From: Phytophthora sp. 'mugwort' | Taxonomy: Eukaryota > Oomycota > Peronosporomycetes > Peronosporales > Peronosporaceae | Length of the DNA stretch: 64,000 bases | Direction: 5' to 3' | Assembly (NCBI GenBank): GCA_033558025.1 | Contig: JAUCEF010000003.1 | Span: 992,001 to 1,056,000, forward strand | Shown: positions 7,421 to 61,200 of the stretch, in pieces | Numbering within the stretch: position 1 is the stretch's first letter | Layout: each line of letters starts with the position of its first letter | The notes under the pieces: generated by a model | What the model saw: only the letters and a program-made list of their open reading frames with translations | What the model was told of the DNA's origin: nothing | Database searches by the model: none | Position numbers and translations under genes: made by a program

Positions 7421-7699
7421 TTCAAGATGGACAAGTAAACGACGAGTCGAAGCCGGAAGGGGTTTTATACACCTGGGATAGCAAGGACAGGCGAAGGTTG
7501 AAGTTGGCGATGCGGACGATTTTCGTTAGCACGGGCTTCTAGATATCGTTAAAGGGAAATTCAAACGGGAACAACTTATTCGTGAAGAGACGCAGACCAT
7601 TTCGGCAAGAACCCACTTTAAATCATCAACATGATAGGCACCACAATCCCTCTCCCAGCTAGGGTCTCCAGCAAACCGATCACTGCGGAGACCGTAACC

Positions 7700-7880
7700 G
7701 AGGGTGTATTGGTTAGAGCATACCGCTCATAACGGTATAGTTGTAGGTTCAAATCCTACTAGTTGTATGTGCTAAACCACCATAATAATTAATAAATCTT
7801 GTATGATATCGATCAATTTTTATACTAAAGATTTATTTGGATTAATGATCTTATTTTTGATTTTTTTTATTTGTGTGGGC
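7700..7880 (+). other. Probable nuclear insertion of mitochondrial DNA (NUMT) with cob fragment
   Basis: An unusually AT-rich island sits in GC-richer transposon DNA. Besides the tRNA-like piece, 7815-7871 translates as NFYTKDLFGLMILFLIFFI. This closely fits the transmembrane segment of cytochrome b that follows the conserved FYPYFYxKD motif, as I remember it from oomycete and other mitochondrial cob genes. The similarity stops abruptly at about 7814 upstream and at about 7872 downstream, where ordinary nuclear composition resumes. I infer a short mosaic NUMT of two mitochondrial pieces. Confidence 0.55.
7702..7772 (+). pseudogene. Mitochondrial-like tRNA(CAU) remnant
   Basis: The stretch contains a five-pair anticodon stem, TACCG/CGGTA, closing the seven-base loop CTCATAA. 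The anticodon is CAU (Met, or Ile read by modified CAU). It is followed by a perfect T arm, GTAGG/CCTAC, around TTCAAAT, and preceded by a D-loop-like TTGGTTAGAGC. The acceptor and D stems no longer pair fully, so it is probably not a functional tRNA. AT-rich DNA and a cytochrome-b-like fragment directly downstream point to a mitochondrial origin rather than a nuclear tRNA gene. Confidence 0.55.
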
Positions 7881-53833: not shown

Positions 53834-54316
53834 CTAAATCGTTTCCTCCGAGCTAACACTAACAACCATACTCACATTCCACAACTCGCGGTTAACACGC
53901 AAGAATGCCAGCTGCTCGAAGTTTGCCGGAAGCATAGATCGACGCTGCGGTGTCAAGACGAGCTTGCACTGGGAAAACAGGCGTTCCGCTGTGTTCGAAG
54001 TGGGCGGTATCAGCTTCACGATGGGCATGTACTGCGTTGGGCTCTTTGTCTTCTTCTTCTTATCACCACCTCGAGGTAACAGCGAAGCGTAGTCTTCTTC
54101 CCGCTCCTTGCGCTTTTTTCCGGTAGCTTGGTTCACCTTGAATCACTTCAGTTCCGTTTCTTTCGCTGACGACAGTGAAGATCCTGCGATCACCTTGGCG
54201 ACACCAGTTTCAAACGCGGGAGTGTGGACACTCTTTGGCAATAGCCCGCAGGTGTTCTGCCATGTCAGGGTACTCCGCGATTGGCGCGTCAAACATGAGG
54301 CGCACCGCTGCCATAT
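53834..54316 (-). pseudogene. hAT transposase, C-terminal part (interrupted by Cryptons)
   Basis: Read on the minus strand, the gene resumes at 54314 with MAAVRLMFDAPIAEYPDM, shifts frame, and continues as VHTPAFETGVAKVIAG. After a stop (TGA at about 54138) it reaches the hAT dimerisation block PTSNTAERLFSQCKLVL, ending at 53834. The missing upstream half lies at 60363-61200, beyond 6.05 kb of inserted DNA. Rejoining the two halves at the shared ATATGG restores an uninterrupted hAT frame (QRDSTDM-AAVRL). The copy is dead because of the insertion, the stop and a frameshift. Confidence 0.75.
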
Positions 54317-54712
54317 TATCACGACTCCGACCGTCGCCGCATTTCCGACTAGCATCCGACCATATCGCAGAATTTTATATCGCACCAAGTTGTGGAGGCT
54401 TTCGTAAAATGACATACAGCCCGTAATAAATCCCCTCGAAAATGACTGGCTCATGGATAGGTGGCAGGCGTAATTACATCTTGCAAATGAGTGGCACACA
54501 TGCAATTTTGACTGCGCCATTTCGCCTGCGACCTTAGTGATCGATTGACCACCTGGCCTGGTGAATTGAGGGGTTGTGCCCATGGCACTTCTAAGAGGGT
54601 TGTCTGTCGCTTCCACAAAGAACCGTGGTCGTTAATTCCCCGTCGATCCTCCAGCTGAGTATCCCTTGCGATGTTGTTGTCTAACCCCCCCCCCCCCCCC
54701 ACCACCACCACC

Positions 54713-54777
54713 ACCGATGTAGCTCAATGGAAGAGCTCCCGAAAGGGAAGGAGGTGGTTCGATTCCACCCGCCGGTA
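54713..54777 (+). tRNA. tRNA-like sequence inside Crypton 1
   Basis: The acceptor strands ACCGATG and CGCCGGT pair at six of seven positions (one A-C mismatch, one wobble). The D arm is GCTC-AATGGAA-GAGC. The T arm, GGTGG-TTCGATT-CCACC, is perfect. The A box (TAGCTCAATGG) and B box (GGTTCGATTCC) of Pol III promoters are intact. The anticodon arm is shortened to about CCC-GAAA-GGG, so it cannot work as a normal tRNA and no anticodon is assigned. A poly-C tract and (ACC)n precede it (54683-54715). Confidence 0.6.
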
Positions 54778-54874
54778 AATTTCTCTATACTCTATTGACT
54801 GTGGCAGACCTCCAAGCGAGCGACATCTACGGAAGCACCGACCACAAGGATACGGGTGAATACGGCGTGTTGTA

Positions 54875-56882
54875 TTACAGAAGCGGCCTGAGTGTGCCTT
54901 GGTGATGGAGTGGCGCAGGGTCTACAACTTTACCGATTGCAAGACGTTGGTGGTAGGCGCTGATGAGGTCATTGAGGCTTCCCTCGCGATGCAGATGACG
55001 AAGCTCCTTGAGCACAGCGTTAGATCCCGTTGACGGTACGTTTCGCGCGCGGAGGTGCGCCACGACTTTGCTTGATGTTATCTCTCCAAGCTGGGGGACA
55101 TTATCCTTGTAGCTCGGTGACAACTCGTCGAGCGCGTATCCGTCTTCAATGAAGAGCTTCATGAAGGCCACGGGGTGGTTGGCGTCCGACTTCTTGTGCT
55201 TGTTAGTACTCAGCCATCCACGCGGAATTGCCGTGTACCACGCAAACCAGGTGTCGACGAGAGGTATCGTATTCGATCTACGTCGGCGCTTCACTGGTAC
55301 GTTTTCATCTTCATCTCTTGGTCGCTTTGCCTGCTCGCCGCGGTGTCCTGATGTGTTCTATCCAGTGTTGATGCTTGTAGCTTCTACCAAGTTGACCCGA
55401 GCCTCGAGGCGACAGTTGACTGCGATTAACCTTTCTATCCATGCAGTCTGATGATCGAACGCAACTTTGGCCTTCATGTTTCCTTCCGTCAAGTCATCCG
55501 CGGTGGTGTGAGCGGGATCAGCAGACCTCGTGGGTTCCAGTGACCAAGCAAGCAGGTTCGACGTGGTCACACCAGAGGCCTTGGCGCAGCGCTGGATCGT
55601 TGTCATCACTGGCCCCTGCGCGTTGGTCTTCATCAGTGACGGGTAGTGGAGGATGATGGTTGCTGTCAGCATGTCTCTCACAGCAGCGCAAACGTTGAAG
55701 GCCTTGTTACCCAGCGCATGACTCGCGTTGAAGAGCTTGTGGCTAACTTCTCTAATCTGCTCTTGTGTTGCCGAGTCGAAGACTTCCAGCGATGGAAGAA
55801 TAGAGGCTTGCTTTGGCGCCATTCCGCTCAGTACCTTCGCGACTTGATGGTCTTCTTTCGGAGTATTGAAGACGTAGGCGAAGGCTTGTTCGTCGTGGTC
55901 AAGTTCCAGGATCCGCGATCGAAGATCCACTGCGCCGTCAGCTCTGAGCACGCGTTGGCATGCTGGGCACCGCTGCGTCGAAACGAATGAGAGGTTAGCG
56001 GCTGTTCGACACCAGTGGGTCCAGCGACACGATCGAGCAAGCGATTGACAAGAGCGTGAATACCAATCGTCGGCGACGTGTGGACTGTGCTGCTTCTCGT
56101 CGACGCCTGAGAAGAACCCAGGGTGCCGGTTTCCTCAAGCAGGTCCAGCAACGGGATGGAGTCGGCCAGCTCAACGTGAACGTTTTCGACTGCACTGGTA
56201 AATGGTTGAGGAGCGCTGCGCACGGCGACGCCTGGGTGATCAAAGCCAGCGCGAGCGCCAGCTGCGGACAAGTCGCGAAGTCAGCATCGGGGAAGAGCAA
56301 CAGTGCCTGCTCGTCGGACGTCTTCATGCGGATGAAGCGGATGACGAACGCGCCCGCCAGCACCTATGGAGAGCTGCTGCTTCCGAACGAAGGTCAGGTC
56401 CGAATCGCGGCCAAATAGGTACCACAAGAGGCATAACAGAGCTACCTCTTGGTAGTCTGACGCACAGCTAGCCTTTGAATACAGATACCTTGCCATCTTC
56501 TTGAGATCCTCCTTCGTGCATGCAACCGCCTTTTTGACAAATCCACCACTTTCGCGCTTGATGCAGTGCTGCTCAAGCGTGCGCCCCATGCTCTGCAGCT
56601 GCCGTGCTACAGTGCCGCCTTGGACAGGATACTCGTCCAGGATCCAGCACTTCACCTGGCGGAAATATTGAGCGACGGAGTAGCGCACAGGTGCTGCCCC
56701 CGTGCTCCTGAGTGAAATGCCAGGTACACGCCAAACTTGTCCATTAGCGTCACTAGAATAGCGCCTGCGCGGCTAACATGATCCATGCTCGTGATCTCGG
56801 CGGAGAGGAAGCGCTCGAACGCCTTCATGGACGTCGCTCGCGCGCGCTTGGTGTTGGCAGGCTTCAAGTCGTTCAGGCTCAT
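54875..56882 (-). pseudogene. Crypton tyrosine recombinase gene, copy 1 (frameshifted)
   Basis: Starting at 56882 (MSLNDLKPANTKRAR), the protein continues through LLCLLWYLFGRDSDLTFVRK with the first catalytic Arg at about 56410, and TSHSFRRSGAQHAN with the His-x-x-Arg motif at about 55985. FAYVFNTPKEDH follows with the candidate catalytic Tyr at about 55880. A C-terminal DNA-binding-like region has TWFAWYTAIPRGWLS and KKSDANHPVAFMKLF (55250-55150). It ends at 54875. At least four frame changes (near 56680, 56320, 56200, 55900) break the frame, so the copy is inactive unless several are sequence errors. The gene aligns block by block with copy 2. Confidence 0.75.
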
Positions 56883-57683
56883 CGTTATTGGTCGGAGAGG
56901 CGGCAAATACGCGAGTGATATGTGGCACACCACACGTTTGTAGCACGATACACATATCTGGGCATCAGCTCCGACCTGATACGTCGGAATCGCTCTGCTT
57001 CCGACTGCAACCTCTATTCGCGTTCTTATTGGATGAAGCTGAATTTTTTTAAGCGATTTTACTCGCTAAAAACTTTGAAACTGGTTTTCGTTGGCTAAAA
57101 TGAATCGGAGAATAATCTCATTGGCTAGTATGCACTATACTATGATCAGGTCTGGTCGGAGAGATAATGTTATTCATCCATACCATAAAATATCCGACTA
57201 GCGGACCTCTCCGACCTGTACCATAGCAATGGTACATTTAACAAGGAAGGTCCGGCGTACAGTACAGACTGCCATACTGCTTAAGTTTAAGGGAGTCATC
57301 ATAAGATGCGAAAGGGAAGTAGAAAGCCTATTTTTTAGTCTCAGTTTATAAGGTGAAGGAAATCGTCTGAAACGGCCTGTGGGCTTCAAAAAAACGCAGC
57401 TAATCAAAACCATGCAAATTTGCCTGAGCGACATGTGCGCTCGAGACGTTCAAATCAAAAGTGAGCCCCAGATTTCCGTGGAGGGGTCCACTATTAGGAG
57501 TAGCAATTTAGCCACCTATGTCTGTGTCTCCTTATTGGCCGATTATCCCCCTATCAAACCTCGCCACATAGGTTTATAAGACATGCGGCCATTCAGTGGC
57601 TTGCAGCTTTAAAGCAACTCCGCTTTTGAGCAAGCTGCCCTCAGTCTTACTTTTTTATAACTACTGCGCAGATCTCCAGTGCG

Positions 57684-57749
57684 CTGACCGTGCAGCCATC
57701 AGCTCAACCTCGTGACCCCGGTGCCCTGACCGTGCAGCCATCAGCTCAA
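57684..57749 (+). repeat. 24-bp direct repeat beside the tRNA-like sequence
   Basis: CTGACCGTGCAGCCATCAGC (plus TCAA) is present at 57684-57707 and again at 57726-57749, a 42-bp period. It lies directly upstream of the poly-C/(CA)n tract (57760-57786) and the tRNA-like sequence of Crypton 2. Confidence 0.7.
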
Positions 57750-57785
57750 GCAGCGCGACCCCCCCCCCTCCCCCCCCACACACAC

Positions 57786-57857
57786 AGTGACGTAGCTCAA
57801 TGGGGAAGAGCGCTGGGCTGCGGCCTGGAGATGCCTGTTCAATTCGGGCCGTCACTA
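57786..57857 (+). tRNA. tRNA-like sequence inside Crypton 2
   Basis: A perfect seven-pair acceptor stem (AGTGACG with CGTCACT, discriminator A) encloses a D arm GCTC-AATGGGGAA-GAGC, an anticodon-like arm CTGGG/CCTGG with a six-base loop CTGCGG, and a T arm GCCTG/CGGGC. The total is 72 nt. TTTT (57858-57861), a Pol III terminator, follows at once. The A box is TAGCTCAATGG; the B box TGTTCAATTCG is weaker. The six-base loop is unusual; if U33 is the T, the triplet would read GCG. It may be a decayed tRNA gene or a tRNA-derived module. Confidence 0.65.
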
Positions 57858-58066
57858 TTTTATCAAGATGGGTATGGATGCGGTGTCGTGTCGCGCTGTG
57901 GCTGCTCCTGTAGCTGCTATCGCTCCTGCTACTGTTACCGCTCCTGCTATTGATGCAGTCACTTTCGTGCCGCCACTGCCTCTGCCTCTGCCGCGTCTGC
58001 TGTGCTGATGCTGAAGAAGGGCGGGGTTCGTACATGAATAAATTCTGCCTCACTGACTAACTACCT

Positions 58067-60083
58067 CTAGTACATCTTGCGTGTATCCAGGAGCAGGGTC
58101 AACGATGACAGCGATATGCAGTAGTCGTTGTGCTGCACGATCTTCGCGTTCAGGTCGCCCGAGCGGTGGAGAATGTGCAAGTGCTTGAGAACTGCGTCGG
58201 AGCCACGCGAGATGATCTTGCGTGCTGACAGGGACGCAAGAATGGCTTCCTCCCCTCGCTGGCCCTAGTCCAGGACGCGGTCATGGTAGTCCGGCGCATT
58301 CAAGTCGAGCGTGAAACCGTCCTCCAAGAAGAGCTTCATGAAGGCGTCTAGCAGTTTGGCATCCGACTTTTGAGATCGGAGCCTTCCACATCGGTGGATC
58401 CTGTACGTACCGCGCGATCCACGCTGTGTGAAGGTGAGCCACAGCAGTGCGTCTGCGTTTGGGCTTATCGGGATCTTGGCTTGGTTCTTGCTGACGCTTG
58501 TTTTGCTTATCTTGTGCTGTCTTTCCTTCCAGCTTAGTTTCTAGGTTATCCAGGCGAATATCCTGACCCTTGATGTGCCCTAGTAAATAGTCAATCACAC
58601 TGCGCTGATTGTCGATAATCTTGCTCTCGTTACTTGGATGCTTGTGCGGTGGACTGGTTTGTTCGTGCTCTTGGCTTGGCTTGGTGCTTGCATTTCCACA
58701 GGTAGCAAGGTGCGACGACCACGCTAGAAGCTCACACACAGATGCTCCCGCATTATCAGCAGCCGACTCCAAACGCTTGACGGCAGGACCATCCGGCTGG
58801 ACCTTCTTCATTGCTGGGCAGTGCAACATGAGGTTGGCTGTGAGGACGTCGGTTGCTTGCTGACTGAGGTTGTACTTGGAGCTTCCCATCTTATAACAGG
58901 TCACGAATAGCGAGCGTTGGACAGCGGCGATTTTCTCGTGCGTTTCAGCATCAAACGGCTTCAAGTTCTGAGGCTTGATCTCGGCCGTCGTGGCGTGCCC
59001 GCTGAGTGACTTACTAACCATGTGATCTTCTCGACTTGTGTTGAAAATGTAATTGAAACCCTTGTTTGTCGTACTCATATTCTAGGCTCCTCGGTCGAAG
59101 ATCCAGCGCTCTGTGAGTCGATCACATCCGTTGACGTGCTGGGCACCACCACGACGGAACGAGTGCGACGTAAGCGAGGCTTGGACACCGTCAACGCCGG
59201 CAACGCGGTCAAGGAGACGATTGACGTGGGAGAATATCGTCGGCGTGGTATCGATATACACAGGAGCCGCGGGAGCTGGAGCACCGGCGGCCTCGAGCGC
59301 AGTGAACTCGTCGGGCTGATTCAAGACTTCCAACAGCGGCGCCGAAGGCGCCAGCATAACAGTTGCTTGGACCGGGATCTCGGGGAGGTTGTCAATCAAG
59401 GCGACGCACGGTGCTGTTTGTGTGATGAACGCTAATGCGATCGCTTGCAGGGGGCATATGATGGATTTCGGCGTCTGGAAACAGCGACAGCCCCTGTTCT
59501 TCGGACGTCTTCATGCGAATAAAGCAGACGAAGAACACGCTCGTGCGTCGACATAGAGGTTCTGCTTGCGGAAGAGCGACAAATCCGAAGCTCGCCCAAA
59601 TAGGTACCACAACATACACAGCAACGCTGCGTCTCGATAGTCATTAGAAGAACATGCATTCTGATACAAATACAGCATCATCTTTTTTAGATCACTCTTT
59701 GAGCATGGTGGTGCTTTGTTGACTACCTTTCCGTCTCGCTTCATACAGAAGCTGTCCAGCGTCATCCCCATGTTATGTAGCTTTGCTTCCACAATGTGTC
59801 GTTGGACAGGGAAGAGCTCGAATAGCCACATCTTATTATGTCGGTAGTATTGCATTGCAGTATTCTAGGCAAGTGACTTGCCGTTCTTGCCCTCGTTAAA
59901 TGCAAGATACATACCAAACTTATCCAAATCGGCCGCAACACATTTACCTATAGTATCCTGCTCAATGCAGCGCTTAACATATTCAAATTCTACATTTTCG
60001 CTTTTTACAAAGGTCTTGAAAGTCTTGACGGCCGTTTCCTTTGCCCGCTTTGTGTTGCCAGGCTTAAGCTCGTCTAAGCCCAT
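58067..60083 (-). pseudogene. Crypton tyrosine recombinase gene, copy 2 (few lesions)
   Basis: It starts at 60083 (MGLDELKPGNTKRAK). A single in-frame TAG lies between GKSLA and NTAMQYYRH (59864-59866). The first catalytic Arg is in LLCMLWYLFGRASDLSLFRK (about 59600), His-x-x-Arg in TSHSFRRGGAQHVN (about 59150), and the candidate catalytic Tyr in FNYIFNTSREDH (about 59045). A DNA-binding-like C-terminus has LHTAWIARYVQDPPMW, then a shift to KSDAKLLDAFMKLFLEDG. It ends at 58067-58069. Other frame breaks occur near 59520, 59090 and 58380. It is less damaged than copy 1. Confidence 0.78.
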
Positions 60084-60362
60084 ACTGGATGGATTGGTCG
60101 GAAAGGCTGCAAATATGCAAATGGTACGCTCATAACTTGTAATTTGAATGGTGATACACATATTTTTCTTGTCCCTCCGACCAATACGTCGGAAAGACTG
60201 TCGTAGATGACCTACCTAACCCTAACCAAAAGGATTAATCAAAACGTTTTGACAAACATCATCTGATTGGTTGTTTATAAGTAAAATTCGACGATTGGCC
60301 ATATATGAGCAACTATATCTAATTCAAACATTAAGTAAGGTCGGATAAGTGGTCATATCCAT

Positions 60363-61200
60363 CCATATCGGTGCTGTCACGCTGCAGCCGCAAACACACA
60401 CTGTCGAACTTCTTCAGGTACTAGAATAAGACGACCAGCTTCCTGTGTTTGACGCCAGGTGGGTTCAGATCCTCAACTGCCTCGACCTTCTTGGTGTCAC
60501 CGCGAATCCAGTTTGGCGCTGCACCATCGTGAATGCTGACGACCAGCGAGTGGCATTGCGCTTAACAGGCAGGAGCTCTGTGTGCTTCTTGAGCTCCGCG
60601 AAGTTGTTTTCCTTGCGGAGCTCTACCATGAGAGTGTTCACGTTATCCAGCAAGTCCTCGTATGGCGCCAGAAACTTGTTGACCGCGAGGCTGAATCTGT
60701 GGCTGGCACAGCCGACGAGAGGTACCCCCATCTTGGTTGCAATAGACTGGTTGGTGGCGCAGTTGTCGCCAATCAAAAACGCAACCATAGCGTTGATCTT
60801 CTTGTAAACGTCGAGAATGTTGTCGAATAACTGCACGTGTGCATCTGCTGTCTGTGTACCATCCGCGAGATAGGATAGTCCAAGCAGCGGCACGCGAAGC
60901 TCTCCGTCTGCGCCGCAAACAGCGTAAAGGCCACATAATGCACTCCCGCGTGCGTCCAGCCGTCGAACATAAGACCAAAGAGTCTTTCGATCTCCTTCTC
61001 GACCTTCTTGCCGACCTTGATCGCAATGCCCGCCATGCACTTTTTGATAGCCTTGACTTGACAGGTCGCAGCTTGCTCATGGCTCGTATGAGCGATATAA
61101 TCGAAGATTCACAAGCTAAGGTGCAGGTGGCACACAAAATATATGTGTACCGCAAAGATAAGAAGCAGGGATGTGGCGGAGCCAGCGGGTGGACGAGGAC
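60363..61200 (-). pseudogene. hAT transposase, N-terminal and middle part
   Basis: Minus-strand frames give RLFGLMFDGWTHAGVHYVA (about 61000-60910, with the first catalytic Asp), then PLLGLSYLADGTQTADAHVQ. These are followed by FLIGDNCATNQSIATKMG (second Asp), GCASHRFSLAVNKFL (the conserved C-x2-H block) and PVKRNATRWSSAFTM. It then shifts frame through VEAVEDLNPPGVKHRKLV to CLRLQRDSTDM at 60366, where the Crypton insertion begins. The C-terminal half is at 54316-53834. No BED zinc finger is recognised upstream of 61200. Confidence 0.75.

Follow-up and report, generated by a model that had tools for sequence, protein, structure and literature searches.

We analysed a 64,000-nucleotide stretch of DNA from Phytophthora sp. 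'mugwort' (contig JAUCEF010000003.1, positions 992,001 to 1,056,000 of the forward strand; hereafter the window), in which a hAT transposase gene on the minus strand is split by an insert at 54311-60368. The insert is a head-to-tail array of two CryptonS-type elements, called A and B here, both with broken recombinase genes. The 3' part of the interrupted hAT gene lies at 53834..54310 and contains the C-terminal dimerisation domain (Pfam Dimer_Tnp_hAT, PF05699, at 53834-54142; E 1.9e-4, 21.6 bits with a cut-off of 21.4), and the 5' part lies at 60369..61093. Both parts have uninterrupted relatives, L009 and L010, in the genome, which was searched as 86.3 Mb in 154 contigs (L numbers denote fetched loci and C numbers contigs). 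CCATAT stands at window position 54311 and again at 60363, and the empty hAT copies have a single CCATATC there, reading CCATATCGG (four copies). L009 and L010 aligned to both hAT flanks with a 6-base overlap, CCATAT, and L036 and L037 ran uninterrupted across the site (...CTGCCATATCGGTGCTGTCA...). The insert is exact, because all four hAT copies read across the site hold one CCATATC where the window has everything from 54311 to 60363; three more distant right-flank matches (71-73%) stand outside this count. When the window flanks were joined by script, the frame across the site was that of L009 and L010, and the window hAT copy showed stops of its own 17 codons before the site and 35 after it. 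A first-pass annotation of this DNA had given these coordinates and bases as they are, and had claimed an exact cut that rejoins in frame; the uninterrupted copies that it proposed as a check bear this out.

Element A (54311..57182, recombinase gene on the minus strand) was delimited with its genomic copies L011-L028. Twelve of these 18 loci match A from 1 to 2872 as a single BLAST piece at 91-96%, five reach both ends in pieces (L014, L017, L025, L026, and L027), and L023 is without the last 172 bases. The A tyrosine recombinase gene (54875..57065, minus strand), located from the open reading frame list and tblastn, is broken by frameshifts and stops and has an open relative at L011:2215-4089. 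Element B (57178..60367, minus strand; copies L029-L035) carries a broken recombinase gene at 58281..60215 (minus strand), located in the same way. The two elements share one orientation, and their DNA identity is 72-82% in aligned blocks D1-D5 and D7, so that two related but diverged Cryptons are present as first annotated.

The recombinase showed an R-H-R-Y type active site. A Pfam scan of the 624-aa protein returned DUF3435 alone, below cut-off, which gave it no name, and the GCR1_C DNA-binding domain was absent; most copies of A and of B begin and end with CCATA, in line with the 5-6 bp terminal direct repeats, usually TATGG, of CryptonS. Among the best 120 of 183 homologues, the named ones were Phytophthora and other oomycete proteins. 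The structure model reached a pLDDT of 54.7 with 11 sequences, which is poor, and 80.5 with 62 sequences, and we count the predicted recombinase fold, together with the active-site residues, as established. A PDB sequence search gave one chance match, and no recombinase relatives were found in the viral contigs scanned. Seven public Phytophthora proteins that match the recombinase (P0010, P0014, P0022, P0023, P0033, P0047, and P0095) are named as host enzymes, with names including RNA-binding protein 42, glycine cleavage H protein, PI4-kinase, histone methyltransferase, and pectin lyase F; these are gene-model fusions or misnaming. Short contigs of 2.8-2.9 kb, about one element long, also bear the recombinase (P0001, P0002, P0003, P0007, and P0021), and repeat collapse and circles would look alike here. 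In the A family, 14 of 18 terminal branches measure from 0.009 to 0.026, and the family looks like the product of a star-shaped burst. The insertion is datable only in part, short of the precise dating first envisaged.

The ends of the elements follow a common rule. The left-end rule, CCATANC-N8-TCCGAC, gave 110 exact genome matches versus 3 for the reversed control, the right-end rule drawn from the copies is GTCGG-N18-CCATA, and GTCGG stood at an equal distance from the core at the right ends of A and B and at two others. In the window (all on the plus strand), the left attachment core between host and A is CCATATT at 54311..54317 (CCATATC in most A copies), and the A left arm, TCCGAC, follows 8 bases past the core at 54326..54331. 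The A right arm, GTCGG, lies at 57155..57159, 18 bases ahead of the core CCATACC that A and B share (57178..57184), with which B copies without A also start. The B left arm, TCCGAC, found by the left-end pattern, is at 57193..57198, and its right arm, GTCGG, seen in the window bases and in B copies, is at 60340..60344; the right core between B and host, CCATATC at 60363..60369, was placed by the empty-site alignment.

Genomic copies of the Cryptons supported the CCATA ends of the first-pass annotation and refined the limits of the elements to A 54311-57182 and B 57178-60367. The same annotation had read two adjacent copies of CCATA at the junction (57178-57187), and this part did not stand: there is one shared core followed by B's own next bases. 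The left end of eight other B copies was exactly CCATACCATAAAAT in four (L029, L030, L031, and L055), one base off in three (L032, L033, and L034), and degraded in L035. Since B copies without A begin with this sequence or a near variant, the second CCATA (57183-57187) is part of B, and a reading of the two as two cores is ruled out. In 17 non-Crypton right flanks of A, two of which are probably one duplicated locus, the seventh core base was C in 16 (chance 3e-9), and the sixth was T in 10, A in 4 and G in 3. The recurrent target deduced from these flanks is CCATANC (GNTATGG on the other strand) with a variable sixth base; the (A)TATGG site annotated earlier holds, and ATATGG as the recurrent target does not.

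Searching the genome for the recombinase yielded 157 matches, with 150 of 297 candidates scored, and the best 150 merged to 135 loci. Among these loci, for the matches listed, 15 neighbouring recombinase pairs lay less than 4.5 kb apart, 14 of the 15 in the same orientation, versus 0.92 expected. The junction pattern had 20 exact genome matches and 7 more with one mismatch (control 1); A stood on the left in 13 of these 27, two of which are one duplicated locus (C5:8052264 and C13:3687239). Crypton arrays are common in this genome; the tandem arrangement by repeated integration was correctly suggested at the outset and is not a local curiosity.

The arrays probably are also polar: judged by end motifs, neighbours of A stand on its right more often than on its left. 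After hand removal of duplicates (L039/L040, L043/L044, and L050-L053), 30 of the 35 A right flanks read were retained, and a Crypton left end adjoined A's right end at 14 of them: 13 with the arm at the fixed place and at most one mismatch (L045 has one), together with L014. Collapsing loci with alike neighbours gave a strict count of 11/28, and merging loci whose neighbours are of one family gave a lower count of the same data, 9/26. At A's left end, a Crypton right end with an exact arm adjoined at only L020 and L070 among 37 distinct left flanks, two of which (L069 and L073) are not intact. Fisher's test versus 2/37 gave p = 1.0e-4 for 14/30 and p = 1.2e-3 for 11/28. A search of the L013 and L015 neighbours by tblastn with A and B pieces found no recombinase, and these neighbours may be non-autonomous or cut down. 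Three further arrangements were observed among the A copies. A duplicated segment at C5:8052-8055 kb and C13:3684-3687 kb (L040/L071 and L039/L072) holds the same array of A and neighbour with the same left flank; an inverted duplication at C6:5203-5231 kb (L050-L053) places A right ends 230 bases apart; and at C17:255977 and 256713 (L057 and L060) one A copy is apparently inserted in another, the left flank of L057 being A coding sequence.

Each of the two window elements also contains a tRNA-like gene, overlooked in the first-pass annotation, on the strand opposite to the recombinase. The gene of A lies at 54713..54777 (plus strand; 43 bits with Rfam RF00005, and supported by folding), its anticodon arm being a short hairpin with a GAAA loop, and is preceded by a poly-C and CCA-repeat tract at 54685..54712 (plus strand). 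The gene of B lies at 57786..57857 (plus strand; 50.9 bits with RF00005, called by ARAGORN with undetermined anticodon) and has a UGCG loop of the UNCG type; a poly-C and CA tract, seen in the window alignment and in B copies, precedes it at 57759..57785 (plus strand). Of the distinct tRNA-likes in the fetched loci, 27 of 31 had a run of at least six C within 60 bases upstream, versus a background of 75/7434.

The Rfam curated cut-off was passed by 11 of the 16 A copies in L011-L026, where L018 holds a second tRNA-like in its neighbour and L021 an ordinary tRNA-Ile. Five places passed in L027-L035 (L027, L030, L031, L032, and the neighbour in L028), L029 fell slightly short at 28.2, and no match came from L033-L035 or from the A copy of L028 itself; those of a further family, C, scored 49.6-61.5 bits (L075-L078). 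A model built from 16 tRNA-likes added L028's A copy, L034, L035, L079, and the neighbours in L013, L019 (30.4 bits) and L020 (38.1 bits), and found no match in the neighbours in L011, L014, L015 and L026. At least five Crypton families have the tRNA-like gene, in the same position, and in four of these the anticodon loop is mostly a tetraloop. A pattern for the B/C type (UNCG) had 32 genome matches and none in the control; it includes the loop, so the loops it retrieves say nothing about loops. Of the 32, 27 had either a recombinase on the opposite strand, 1.1-1.75 kb downstream, or a left end at 0.4-0.9 kb upstream, where random placement put a mean of 0.12 and a maximum of 2 matches beside Crypton parts, and the remaining 5 also stood beside Crypton parts once their surroundings were read. 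For the A type, 38 of the best 40 of 51 candidates were beside Crypton parts, and the last two lay about 390 bases inside A left ends (C6:4777834 and C18:2381503).

The tRNA-likes form a cloverleaf with acceptor, D and T arms, with scores over the Rfam cut-off in A, B, C and the L018 neighbour and with covariation. In an alignment of 16 tRNA-likes (15 distinct), 9 of 16 stem pairs showed changes on both sides, and 3 of 5 covariation measures were reached by none of 500 shuffles. Paired cells amounted to 95.8% versus 32-47% with slid partners, a percentage flattered by the choice of rows, since the tRNA model had to fit for a sequence to be picked (five B and five C-type sequences, 5 of 19 A loci, and the L018 neighbour) and the degenerate L013 neighbour and L079 were left out. 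Energy folding returned cloverleaves for A and C, the last acceptor pairs of A aside. A seven-base decoding anticodon loop was absent from both window copies, which have tetraloops. The loop was GAAA in A; UUCG in three of four C and CUCG in L078; UGCG or UACG in four of six B, UACC in L029, and changed in L032; and CUUG in the L018 neighbour. ARAGORN, run on eight tRNA-likes, reported an undetermined anticodon for six and nothing for two. The RNA probably cannot decode, to judge from these loops. Polymerase III A and B boxes, by the usual consensus, are readable in A, B, C and the L018 neighbour.

Other tRNA-related features were seen in passing. The tRNA-likes at L019:7971-8041 and L020:4720-4790, of another Crypton family, are GC-rich with a longer anticodon-type loop and are perhaps nearer the ancestral tRNA. 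Tandem tRNA-like pairs about 200-212 bases apart occur within one Crypton at C16:1803498 and 1803710 (L075 region) and at C7:6068673 and 6068873 (L081). The window has a tRNA-Met gene at 7694-7767 (ARAGORN), and the genome tRNA family search gave 62 equal-score tRNAs (66.2 bits) on small contigs C15-C115, perhaps organelle copies in the assembly.

We consider it probable that this is a CryptonS-type array in which B entered the hAT gene first and A came later at B's left end, with an antisense non-decoding tRNA-like gene in each. Each element would have been moved by its tyrosine recombinase into a CCATANC target, presumably by way of a circle in which the two ends, once joined, would give GTCGG-N18-CCATANC-N8-TCCGAC. 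B would have entered the hAT gene at CCATATC, and A would afterwards have entered the left end of B, because CCATANC-N8-TCCGAC is a core with one putative recombinase-binding arm and resembles the element's own joined site. Integration at the left end would make arrays grow on one side, and newcomers likely integrate at the left ends of residents. That A was the newcomer is suggested by its star-shaped burst and the variety of its neighbours. The tRNA-like gene would most likely give a structured non-decoding RNA, possibly transcribed by polymerase III, and convergent transcription from it may hold down the recombinase transcript or supply small RNAs. The tRNA-like gene looks integral to the Cryptons here.

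Several results weigh against this account. No circle was seen, and Foldseek with the recombinase model found no match under E 0.001 (best 0.007). The junction match at C5:7228928 (L023) has no right arm and is not a junction by the arm test, and the L014 neighbour has a shifted arm, with a recombinase downstream. The left-end motif test required an exact match and the right-end test allowed one mismatch; with one mismatch on both sides the left count became 3/37 (L061 added), giving p = 4.9e-4, or 4.8e-3 for the strict count. A motif-free test, again for the matches listed, found a same-orientation recombinase to the right of 8/35 A right ends and to the left of 3/38 left ends, which was not significant (p = 0.10); the left count includes L071, where the neighbour's recombinase is near and A's left end shows no right-end arm. 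No difference in terminal branch length was seen between A copies that have a neighbour (n = 10) and those that lack one (n = 8; p = 0.76), and a late element entering A's right end would give an identical junction. As for the tRNA-like gene, ARAGORN called no tRNA in A copies, the window A included, and recombinase pieces were present in the L011, L014 and L026 neighbours that had no tRNA-like match. The number of pairs changed on both sides was reached by 15 of 500 shuffles and that of pair types by 401 of 500. Energy folding of B-family tRNA-likes preferred another structure, the L019/L020-neighbour family seems to have a longer open loop and no tetraloop, a TTTT terminator directly follows only in B, and the wobble comparison (13 G-U versus 8 A-C cells) did not decide the strand.

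An unlikely alternative is growth at the right end, with A first and with B and other families arriving later at A's right end. It would produce the same junction, and the left ends adjoining A at 14/30 loci are as it predicts. However, the neighbours' left ends are of several kinds (ATAAAATA, ATAAAATC, ATAATATC, GTGACGGT, ATCAAAGG, ATTAAAGG, and ATACAATC), all of which would need a preference for A's right end; moreover, A copies with a neighbour are not older, and B copies are likewise abutted on the right at 2/9 flanks. It seems to us quite unlikely that the tRNA-like segment came as a chance passive passenger, either a SINE or a captured tRNA, as published for P. infestans Crypton6. The wording there is 'a tRNA-like infSINEp insertion' (PMC3522703), SINEs typically contain tRNA-derived sequence, and the segment is absent from some recombinase-bearing neighbours. 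However, the dispersed free copies of a SINE were not found: all 32 UNCG-type matches, in one orientation, and all 40 A-type matches (best 40 of 51) lie within Cryptons, and the placement shared by at least five families and the compensatory stem changes also speak against a passenger. Movement of the pairs as one composite unit is very improbable: an ATAAAAT-type left end recurs on the neighbour at seven A loci (six without one duplicated locus), but neighbours differ from locus to locus, the ground on which we reject such a unit, 37 of 38 A loci have distinct left flanks, and A is also found without a neighbour. Chance tandems of ordinary CryptonS elements at a short target, for which the published TATGG ends (PMC3212892) might suffice, are hardly credible, since chance does not yield 11-14 left-end matches or 14/15 same-orientation pairs.

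The elements resemble CryptonS of oomycetes and diatoms in having a tyrosine recombinase without GCR1_C, TATGG (CCATA) ends, short terminal direct repeats and an oomycete host; most CryptonS elements are stated to have TATGG ends in common (Kojima and Jurka, 2011, PMC3212892). The elements here are about 3 kb; in addition, their core is 7 bases long, their arms stand at fixed places, and they form recurrent arrays that look polar and carry an antisense tRNA-like gene. By word search, the main text of PMC3212892 does not contain 'tRNA' and has 'tandem' only in the reference list; a circle is proposed for Cryptons only by analogy in the published passages seen. According to passages of PMC3522703, the 3.2-kb Crypton6 of P. 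infestans has abundant antisense small RNAs at its 3' end, at the tRNA-like insertion, and its 32-nt RNAs were unaffected by silencing Dcl1 or Rnh5 singly. The elements here are alike in size and in the tRNA-like region near the 3' end, where Crypton6 has those RNAs, which suggests, by description only, that this region is the same part; Crypton6 is described there as carrying a SINE insertion in one element, whereas here the segment occurs in several families and no free copy was found among the matches listed. Small RNAs also map to tRNA and tRNA-like clusters in PMC4272539, where a word search found no 'crypton'. In titles and abstracts of the open literature, with subscription papers and Repbase reports outside this scope, we found none that treats polar arrays of Cryptons or a tRNA-like gene conserved in them. 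What is added here is the attachment rule, recurrent arrays of probable polarity and the tRNA-like gene.

Bacterial tyrosine-integrase islands accrete in tandem at attL and attR. The arrays here are alike in that site-specific integration into the end of an existing element builds tandems, and differ in host, element size and core, which is short here; their polarity comes from counts, not experiments. mascRNA-type tRNA-like RNAs are tRNA-shaped and do not decode, as proposed here, but unlike the present gene are not known to be linked to a transposon recombinase.

Taken jointly, a possibility that we advance only tentatively is that CryptonS elements are self-seeking and build polar arrays, their recombinase preferring the left site of residents, a core with one arm, over plain targets. 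Most autonomous families would carry their own antisense tRNA-like gene, with a tetraloop usually replacing the anticodon loop, and its RNA would be the source of the antisense small RNAs of P. infestans Crypton6, a working part and not a SINE. Of the DNA transposons of eukaryotes, Cryptons are one of the less well understood kinds, and the 7-base core, fixed arms and natural hot spot offer testable attachment sites. If true, a tRNA-shaped RNA gene that is built into a DNA transposon, probably non-decoding and maintained through compensatory changes, would be a novel type of transposon component and would change how published Phytophthora small-RNA data are read.

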